A DNA stretch of 64,000 bases from contig NZ_CP040710.1 of the NCBI RefSeq assembly GCF_005943945.1, positions 4,571,501 to 4,635,500 of the forward strand, in the 5' to 3' direction. Positions 5,171 to 8,100 of this stretch are shown one piece after another. The translations under genes and the position numbers were made by a program. Under the pieces are notes generated by a model. It saw only the letters and a program-made list of their open reading frames with translations. It did no database searches and was not told the DNA's origin. Every line of letters starts with the position of its first letter. Position 1 is the stretch's first letter. Source of the DNA: Aggregatimonas sangjinii. Its GTDB lineage: Bacteria; Bacteroidota; Bacteroidia; Flavobacteriales; Flavobacteriaceae.

Positions 5171-8100
5171 ATGAAGTTCGCAGAATATAAGGGATTGGAC
5201 CTTCCAAAGGTCGCAGAAGAAATTCTCGAGTACTGGAAGCAAAATCGAATTTTCGAAAAAAGCGTTTCCACCAGGGAAGGCAAACCTAGTTATGTCTTTT
5301 ATGAAGGACCACCCTCGGCAAACGGTATGCCGGGCATTCATCACGTTATGGCGCGTACCATCAAGGATATTTTTCCGCGATACAAGACAATGAAAGGTTT
5401 TCAGGTCGAGCGAAAAGCAGGGTGGGATACCCACGGGCTTCCGATTGAGTTGGGCGTTGAAAAAGAATTGGGTATCACTAAAGAGGACATTGGAAAGAAA
5501 ATTTCGGTGGAAGAATACAATGCGGCCTGCAAAAAAGCCGTCATGCGTTATACCGATGTTTGGAATCGCATGACCGAGCAAGTGGGGTACTGGGTCGATA
5601 TGGCCGACCCGTACGTTACCTACAAGTCCAAATATATGGAGTCGGTTTGGTGGTTGTTAAAACAAATTTACGATAAGGGGCTCATTTACAAAGGATACAC
5701 CATTCAACCGTATTCCCCTAAGGCAGGTACCGGTTTGAGTTCGCACGAGCTCAACCAGCCGGGCACATATCAGGACGTTACCGACACCACGGTAACAGCA
5801 CAATTTAAAACGATTGAAAGTAGTCTACCTCAATTTCTACAAAATGAGGGTGATGTATACATATTAGCTTGGACGACCACTCCGTGGACGCTTCCGTCGA
5901 ATACGGCACTGACCGTAGGAGCCAAAATAGATTATGTATTGGTAGAAACATACAACCAATACACCTTCAAACCGATGAATGTCATTTTGGCGAAAAATCT
6001 GGTCGCCAAGCAGTTTGCCGGAAAATTTCATCAGGTAGATGCAAAACCGGAGCTATTGGCTTACGCCGCCGGAGACAAAAAGATTCCATTTTTTGTTGTA
6101 AAAGAATTTAAGGGCAAAGATCTAGTCGGTATCCGATACGAACAGTTGTTATCTTATGTGCAGCCCTACCAGAACCCCGATAATGCCTTTCGAGTCATCA
6201 GTGGAGATTTCGTCACGACCGAAGATGGTACTGGAATCGTGCATACGGCACCTACCTTTGGTGCGGATGATGCCTTAGTGGCTAAACAAGCAGTGCCTGA
6301 GGTACCACCTTTATTGGTTTTGGATGAGAATAATAATGCTGTCCCCTTAGTTGATTTACAGGGAAAATTTAGGCCCGAATTAAAGGAATTCGGTGGTAAG
6401 TACGTCAAAAACGAATATTACGAAGACGGTGTGGCCCCGGAGAAGTCGGTCGATGTAGAGCTTGCCATAAAGCTTAAGGAGGAAAACAAGGCCTTTAAAG
6501 TTGAAAAATACGTTCACAGTTATCCGAATTGCTGGCGAACCGATAAGCCGATTTTATATTATCCACTGGATTCTTGGTTCATTAAGATCACCGATGTTAA
6601 AGATCGGATGTTCGAACTGAACCAAAGCATCAATTGGAAACCGAAATCGACCGGTGAAGGCCGATTTGGCAACTGGTTGGCCAATGCCAATGATTGGAAT
6701 CTTTCCCGCTCTCGATATTGGGGCATTCCCCTACCGATTTGGCGTACCGAAGATGGTACCGAAGAATTGATGATCGGATCTGTTGCCGAACTAAAGGCCG
6801 AAATGCAAAAGGCTTTGACCGCCGGAGTATTGGAAAAGGATATTTTCGACGAATTTATTGTGGGTGACATGTCGGAAGATAATTACGACAAAATCGACCT
6901 GCATAAAAACATCGTAGATGCGATAACGTTGGTATCCCCTTCGGGAAAAACTATGAAGCGGGAAAGCGACTTGATCGATGTTTGGTTCGATAGTGGCGCT
7001 ATGCCCTACGCACAGTGGCATTATCCTTTTGAAGAAGGACAGAAGGCCCCCTCTAGCTCCCCCTCAGGAGGAGAATTAAAGGGCTCTTTATATCAGACTG
7101 CACGAAAATCTAGCTATAAGTTGTTTAAAAACTTGGCCGCTGAAAGAAAAAAGTATTCTACGGATGCGGAGAAGATTCTATGGGAGTCTTTACGTGGAAA
7201 AAAACTAGATGGTTTCAAATTCAGAAGAGAACACATTATCGATGAATTTATTGTGGACTTTGTATGCTTATCAAAACAATTAATTATTGAAGTTGATGGA
7301 GGATACCACCTCAAGCAAGAAGTAAAAGAAGCAGATGAGCTCAGAACAAAAATTCTAGAAAATGATTTAGGTTTCCACCTTATTCGGTTTACAAATGAGG
7401 AGGTAATAGTGAATATTGATTCTGTCTTAAAAACTATTTCCAAAAAACTGAACAACCTTCCCCCTGAGGGGGAAACGAAGGGGGCCTTAGGCATTCCTTT
7501 CCCCGCCGACTTTATCGCCGAAGGTGTAGACCAGACGCGTGGTTGGTTCTATACCTTGCATGCCATAGGCACCATGGTCTTCGATTCGGTGGCCTATAAA
7601 AATGTCGTATCCAATGGTTTGGTTCTCGATAGGGAAGGCAAGAAAATGTCGAAACGTCTTGGGAATGCTGCCGACCCTTTCGAGACTATGGATGCCCATG
7701 GGGCCGATGCGACCCGTTGGTATATGATCGCTAATGCCAACCCCTGGGACAACTTAAAATTCGATATCGAGGGTATCGTCGAGGTAAAACGAAAGTTTTT
7801 CGGAACCCTCTACAACACCTATTCTTTCTTTAGCCTGTATGCCAATATAGATGGATTTTCATACGACGAGGCCGATATTCCATTAGACGAGCGCCCTGAA
7901 ATCGACCGGTGGATCCTTTCGGAATTGCATACGCTCATTCGAACCGTTGATGCTGCTTACGCCGATTACGAGCCGACCAAGGCAACGAGGGCTATATCGG
8001 AGTATGTACAAGAAAATCTTAGCAATTGGTATGTGAGATTGTGTAGAAGGCGTTTTTGGAAAGGCGATTATCAAAAAGACAAGATTTCGGCTTACCAAAC

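Follow-up and report, generated by a model that had tools for sequence, protein, structure and literature searches.

The isoleucyl-tRNA synthetase gene (ileS) of Aggregatimonas sangjinii carries an in-frame insert that encodes a DUF559 nuclease domain between two palindromic ends, and the same site is empty in its close relatives. This insert is probably a selfish nuclease element of the homing type that resides in its host protein as an additional domain without being spliced out. With somewhat less assurance, we lean towards viewing it as one member of a Bacteroidota-wide class of splicing-free, palindrome-ended homing nucleases, whose guest domain of ~145 residues is found in IleRS, LeuRS, ValRS, MetRS, RecG, MetH, UvrA and other proteins. 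Members of this class would settle in tolerant loops, be copied into the same loop elsewhere, hop only rarely into a new protein and decay into fossils. The initial annotation had already read the insert as a mobile nuclease element; the empty sites in relatives and the related palindrome-ended cassettes in other genes support that reading.

An in-frame nuclease cassette in ileS

Coordinates refer to the window, that is, the whole stretch of 64,000 nucleotides that was analyzed. ileS is a single uninterrupted open reading frame of 1279 codons (Table 1). Pfam matched tRNA-synt_1, Anticodon_1 and DUF5915 in its product and, at residues 654–760, DUF559 (E = 3e-31), in line with the proposed in-frame cassette. 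Against the DUF559 profile (PF04480), the cassette scored 113.2 bits, above the curated cut-off of 20.6. Solved IleRS chains align to residue 624 and again from residue 776, with four chain residues in between (8c8u, 536 to 541), so the interrupted blocks do normally lie only a few residues apart. The loop comprises 13 residues in empty relatives compared with 158 in the window, a net gain of 145 codons (435 bp). Removal of the cassette would therefore leave an IleRS of ~1134 residues, close to the ~1130 first estimated. Both synthetase motifs that were said to survive are present, namely GIHH, which we take to be the equivalent of the HIGH motif, and KMSKR, which we likewise take to be the motif of that name in this enzyme. 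Only one near-full ileS match was found in the genome of the window. Since the reading frame of the cassette contains no methionine (no ATG codon), the nuclease is presumably made only within IleRS.

Table 1. Features of ileS and its insert, in window coordinates.
Feature	Position	Strand	Basis
ileS, isoleucyl-tRNA synthetase with in-frame cassette, 1279 aa	5171..9010	+	ORF, Pfam, alignment to solved IleRS
GIHH, taken as HIGH-motif equivalent, intact	5333..5344	+	sequence; region aligns to solved IleRS
Putative mobile cassette, outermost bounds; 435 bp net longer than empty sister site	7043..7488	+	ends, empty-site comparison
Left inverted-repeat end with internal hairpin; encodes KAPSSSPSGG	7043..7072	+	
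N-terminal extension common to embedded copies (Y.TA......LLKE type), mostly helix in model	7091..7153	+	
DUF559 (PF04480) nuclease domain; D72, E83, D85 and H89 of cassette invariant in 81 rows	7130..7450	+	
Right inverted-repeat end with internal hairpin; frame runs through it as LPPEGETKGA	7459..7488	+	
KMSKR motif, intact	7643..7657	+	sequence; K825-R829 invariant in alignment

The interior of the cassette (7100–7459) has a GC content of 33.3%, in agreement with the ~34% counted initially, compared with 45.0% and 43.4% in the two parts of ileS and 44.2% in the window. The 53–58% reported for the flanks fits the nearest blocks only: GC in the 150-base windows adjoining the cassette ends reaches up to 0.49 on the left and 0.55 on the right. 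The inverted-repeat ends were confirmed as GC-rich arms of 30 nt that are 80% complementary and lie 386 nt apart, and each arm contains a hairpin of its own (CCCCCTxxGGGGG type). With at most one mismatch, the hairpin core CCCCCTNNGGGGG occurs within the window only at the two cassette ends (four strand matches), compared with a mean of 0.71 matches in 100 shuffles, one of which reached as many.

Like an intein, the insert sits precisely and in frame within a gene that is conserved and essential, and a splicing element (an intein or a group I/II intron) would leave the mature protein unmarked. However, no Hint or intein domain was among the Pfam matches of IleRS at E ≤ 1e-3, and a search of 6800–7700 against Rfam gave no match at E ≤ 1, hence no intron RNA. 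The reading frame is continuous through both cassette ends, the cassette contains only ~10 residues of palindrome-coded peptide per end outside the nuclease and its N-terminal helix, and native loop residues are replaced. We therefore regard splicing as extremely improbable.

Within the genus, ileS was found in 10/10 genomes, and the insert in that of the window alone, the other 9/9 being empty at this exact position, as had been anticipated of close relatives. In the family, the ileS site was matched in one piece in 127/130 genomes (in one of these, G046, the loop is still 11 residues longer). The three split sites belong to the window (cassette), to G093 (a palindromic repeat) and to G088 (a different insert of 49 residues). 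In an ileS tree with 56 rows, of which 14 carry a cassette, presence requires at least six changes on starred branches, and the nearest relative of the window is empty (97); L188 and the carrier L241 were unmatched and left out of this tree, and G007 entered it twice. Cassettes occur in ileS of both Flavobacteriaceae and Prolixibacteraceae/Marinilabiliaceae, as might be expected of an ancient ileS domain that was lost many times; Galbibacter and Psychroflexus are among the carriers. This explanation was rejected because of the empty sites in the genus and the one-piece matches in the family; the forced changes, the empty nearest relative and the related cassettes at other host sites also argue against it, and we consider it very unlikely.

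Related cassettes and palindromic ends in other host genes

The genome of the window contains eight DUF559 matches. ileS, leuS and metH each carry one in frame; of the other five, four are stand-alone genes, and the fifth we take, from the way it reads, to be vsr-like. DUF559 was matched at E ≤ 1e-10 in at least 148/397 family genomes and at E ≤ 1e-15 in at least 162/395 phylum genomes, and, among the matches listed, a good part lie in frames of 800 to 1484 codons. Eighty named loci, the best of 581, were read; 74 of them are embedded in host frames and six stand alone. This sample is biased, since embedded copies had served to build the query and only the best 80 were kept.

Altogether, 17 Bacteroidota host genes were found to carry cassettes in frame, at recurrent sites for most copies. 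The hosts are leuS (two sites), ileS (two sites), valS, metG, recG, metH (four sites), hisD, mazG, cinA, gmk, a GH31 glycosidase, a PurQ/PurL-type protein, hutU, uvrA, a UvrD-like helicase, aroC and rdgB, named by Pfam or NCBIfam on one representative each, or by motif for recG, metH and hisD. The gmk, hisD and PurL-type cases are terminal fusions. In leuS, valS and the second ileS site, the cassette stands in the sequence just before the corresponding T-rich editing-domain motif, and we assume these motifs to be structurally equivalent in the three synthetases. Cassette GC was below that of the host flanks in 125/127 cases, a count in which some genomes are represented twice through overlapping collections.

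Several further DUF559 arrangements were noted. In a separate clade, the domain is fused N-terminally to hemD, named by motif (L028, L041, L044, L067, L074, L075, L076, L078, L084). In other Bacteroidota families, DUF559 and palindrome-coded peptides occur in restriction genes (L103, L104, L105, L107, L110, L112, L117); the hosts are HsdR in L110 (by NCBIfam) and in L112 and L117 (by likeness), and HsdS and methylase-type genes, judged by eye, in the rest. The HsdR insertions belong to the same separate DUF559 group as the hemD fusions. In a viral contig collection, from which 80 loci were kept and L297–L299 were read, the L297 stretch is valS with a cassette and has a second palindrome-type peptide pair further on in the protein; it therefore provides no evidence of phage carriage.

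The initial annotation had envisaged near-identical cassettes with the same ends in other host genes. Cassettes with palindromic ends do occur in leuS, in metH and in other Bacteroidota, but they are not near-identical. The three cassettes of the window's genome (ileS, leuS and metH) have ends of one type with different sequences. In 33/123 cases (7.7 expected), the left and right ends of one element were more alike than either was to the ends of 15 other elements, and an element's own ends beat 10 shuffles in 83/123, the best agreement being 32 of 33 bases; three of 126 elements were dropped from this test, and some genomes again entered it twice.

The metH gene of G223 encodes two cassettes in one protein. 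Similarity between the two copies begins abruptly at AGCCCCCCxxCCCCCAAAGGGGGAGC and ends at its inverse, and metH site-2 copies nest within the site-1 lineage on cassette trees. Because the two metH copies begin and end at palindromes, the unit seems also to move to new sites. The suggestion that the cassette mobilizes itself by its ends was only partly borne out, by one palindrome-bounded duplication, and its nuclease lies nearer to a homing endonuclease than to a transposase. Comparison of filled and empty sites by eye showed no clear target-site duplication of the kind expected of DNA transposons (DDE and others) at metH, leuS or ileS. Native loop residues are often lost at filled sites.

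Palindromes without a nuclease were also observed in the window's own genome. A solo palindrome is read in frame as APPSGESEGAL in the 3' part of leuS (L211) and another as APPSGAGGA at the N-terminus of metH (L212), and metH site 2 (L099) holds an in-frame, nuclease-free derivative of 37 residues with both ends. The stand-alone DUF559 genes of this genome (L003, L004, L006, L007) lie, by eye, near other palindromic repeats of the CCTCCCTT...AAGGGAGG type.

Shared loops and apparent lateral arrival

The same leuS or ileS loop is occupied in four further genera by an unrelated palindromic repeat, which has dispersed copies elsewhere in the respective genome. This repeat, of the CATTCCG...CGGAATC type, was found in 4/7 genomes queried (24 places; control 0) and is absent from the window's own genome, G046 and G088; in each of the four genomes that bear it, one of its copies lies in the loop of leuS or of ileS. 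The copies at the loops (L193, L194 and L199 in leuS, L206 in ileS, all in Flavobacteriaceae) are in frame and RPE-like. Since unrelated dispersed repeats occupy these loops in four genera, the loops appear to tolerate guests, and the recurrence of cassette sites may partly reflect this tolerance. Perfect-stem hairpins at p < 0.05 were found in 4/16 short leuS/ileS inserts compared with 4/67 empty loops; thus, most short inserts are not demonstrably palindromes. In the leuS genes L189 and L190 (of G011 and G121), DUF559 is decayed with the frame kept, and E.DG..H and the palindromic ends are lost. Judged by sequence, these could be fossils or domesticated domains.

These observations bear on an alternative in which mobility resides in the GC-rich palindromes themselves, as REP- or RPE-like units that are moved at replication or by repair, DUF559 acts as a RAYT-like mobilizer, and site recurrence reflects loop tolerance. 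It would account for the nuclease-free dispersed repeat at the same leuS/ileS loop in four genomes, for the solo in-frame palindromes of the window's own leuS and metH together with the nuclease-free metH site-2 derivative, for the palindromic boundaries of the metH copies and for the palindromes seen by eye near stand-alone DUF559 genes. It sits less well with the cassette phylogeny. Random hops out of a genomic pool would not be expected to yield the grouping by host site across genera that is described next, and in some pairs the cassettes are younger than the flanks of the same site. The fold also matches a homing endonuclease (see below), and the profile identifies the domain as DUF559 rather than as a tyrosine (HUH) transposase. 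We hold this alternative to be unlikely, and favor a homing-type nuclease as the mobile unit.

Both cassette trees rest on few columns (119–121). On the first, of 102 DUF559 domains, the leuS, metH, recG, ileS, hisD and purL copies formed one clade (SH-aLRT 98, 55 rows) apart from the tree's stand-alone genes, and host labels changed 12 times, compared with a minimum of 11 and with 61.5 in shuffles. On the second, of 139 rows after three near-identical cassettes had been dropped, host labels changed 32 times compared with 94.1 in shuffles. There the ileS cassettes did not form one clade (eight changes, of which starred branches force only one), and the embedded copies were interspersed with six stand-alone genes of Bacteroidales. 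The N-terminal stretch Y.TA......LLKE.A..MR is common to embedded copies; the Flavobacteriaceae stand-alone genes that were read start differently, whereas stand-alone Bacteroidales genes have a stretch of the Y.TA......LLKE type.

On a leuS host tree of 66 rows (28 empty, 23 with a cassette, 13 with a longer loop or short insert and two decayed), cassette presence needs 13 changes, at least 10 of which are forced by starred branches. Loci that were too short (L009, L156, L195), unmatched by pattern (L025, L051, L141, L192) or repeats (L098, L100, L101, L128) were left out of this tree. For one leuS cassette lineage, defined on the cassette tree, placement of its hosts as one clade on the host tree was rejected (p-AU 2e-9). 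In the reverse test, for which a quick cassette tree was used, the host-tree groups L002+L071+L072 (p-AU 0.0037) and L045+L069 (p-AU 0.044) were rejected as well.

We then compared synonymous-type changes in the cassette and in the host in 12 pairs, which, like the 16 pairs used for dN/dS below, were hand-picked close tree pairs and pairs of interest rather than an exhaustive set. Two Tenacibaculum recG genes differ at 13/114 sites in the cassette compared with 194/614 in the host (p = 4.5e-6), two leuS genes of the window's genus at 10/107 compared with 77/277 (p = 6.6e-5), with a low-divergence tract that seems to extend into the right flank, and a metH pair at 28/99 compared with 308/657 (p = 5e-4). 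The difference reached p < 0.03 in 6/12 pairs, with the cassette lower in all six, and three survive correction for 12 tests. The other 6/12 pairs showed no significant difference, and one of them had slightly more change in the cassette (42/96 compared with 244/581). Because cassettes have a scattered distribution over the host tree, disagree with its branching and, in some pairs, postdate the flanking host sequence, they appear to arrive laterally at the same site. Same-site spread seems common and gene-to-gene hops look rare, since the cassettes of the window's own genome belong to separate host-site lineages.

Nuclease, proposed mechanism and relation to known elements

The nuclease signature is retained in embedded copies, with E.DG..H in 125/126 and DF in 126/126. 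Eleven pairs combined a finite dS with an identity of at least 0.79, and their dN/dS was 0.03–0.16, values that are rough because dS is above 1 in five of the 11; one more distant pair gave 0.26, and dS was saturated in 4/16 pairs. The cassette nuclease is under purifying selection. Such selection, the persistence of the cassette in essential enzymes and the DNA-related work of some hosts (recG, uvrA, UvrD-like) could also be explained by a recruited domain, for example a nuclease alarm or a DNA-processing module, that benefits the host and is inherited vertically. This is improbable, however, given the patchy presence of the cassettes, the conflict between cassette and host trees and the younger cassettes, as well as hosts without a common function (leuS, metH, hutU, aroC, GH31) and two copies in one metH.

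By sequence, the cassette matched the PDB entry 3hrl, an endonuclease-like protein (E = 5e-20). A structure model of the cassette (pLDDT 85) had 3hrl as its best Foldseek match (E = 2.6e-6), followed at ranks 2 and 3 by the catalytic domain of the homing endonuclease I-Bth0305I (PDB 3r3p; E = 3.5e-4 with TM 0.75 by target, and E = 2.2e-3), with Vsr lower in the ranking (E = 0.38); a model of the whole IleRS (pLDDT 54) was discarded. By this model, the cassette has the EDxHD catalytic fold of the I-Bth0305I type. PMC9403480 places a DUF559 gene among the homing endonucleases of the EDxHD family. We favor a homing-type element without splicing because of the I-Bth0305I-like fold, this family assignment and the lack of both an intron RNA and an intein domain within the searches given above.

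For such an element in ileS, the nuclease would be made only as part of IleRS, and its domain would stay in the mature protein. It would cut alleles that lack the insert, or that hold a palindrome only, at the loop, and recombination with a filled allele would then copy the cassette in. The palindromic ends may guide rarer moves to other loops, and only loops that tolerate ~145 extra residues would keep the cassette. Copies would decay in place with the frame kept, because a careless deletion in an essential gene would be lethal.

The predicted catalytic fold is like that of the EDxHD (Vsr-like) homing endonucleases of the I-Bth0305I type, a family described in the available portion of PMC3943268 as associated with phages and group I introns and as having long DNA-binding extensions. 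Unlike these, the cassette lies inside a host protein, no intron was found, and it contains little beside the catalytic domain. Inteins with homing endonucleases occupy conserved essential genes, code for a nuclease, are patchy and spread in a site-specific manner. The cassette resembles them in being in frame in conserved essential genes, nuclease-coding and patchy, but no splicing domain was found in it and it presumably stays in the protein. That inteins are translated in frame is stated in the same portion of PMC3943268.

Rickettsial RPEs, in the excerpt available of PMC10969869, are palindromic selfish DNA of ~150 bp that lies in frame in unrelated protein genes and codes for a conserved peptide. 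The cassettes likewise bring palindromic DNA in frame into unrelated protein genes, and each end of the ileS cassette is itself a palindrome inserted in frame and coding. By contrast with RPEs, for which that excerpt mentions no nuclease, the net gain is 435 bp and the two palindromes enclose a conserved nuclease domain. Likenesses to REP/RAYT/REPIN systems are the short hairpins with a head sequence, a gene between two inverted copies and nuclease-free derivatives. Unlike REP/RAYT, described as a tyrosine transposase with extragenic REPs, the cassettes lie within genes and encode a nuclease with the fold of a homing endonuclease; both profile and fold are those of DUF559, not of a tyrosine/HUH transposase. 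In fungal mitochondrial rps3, homing endonuclease genes are fused into the host gene with no intron. Here too, a nuclease gene lies within a host coding sequence without an intron, but the rps3 fusions are of the LAGLIDADG type, mitochondrial and accompanied by a duplicated host 3' end. In the literature searched, which covered few subscription papers, we found no description of DUF559 elements in host proteins.

In the textbook view, a mobile element that interrupts the coding sequence of an essential gene has to be spliced out, either as RNA or as protein. If our reading is correct, the cassettes represent a third solution, namely staying in the protein. An element that stays in the protein would be a direct source of new protein domains, and its sites would provide a natural map of the loops at which essential enzymes accept a folded guest domain. 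It would also explain odd 'DUF559' annotations inside synthetases and would link homing endonucleases to the in-frame palindromes of the Rickettsia type.
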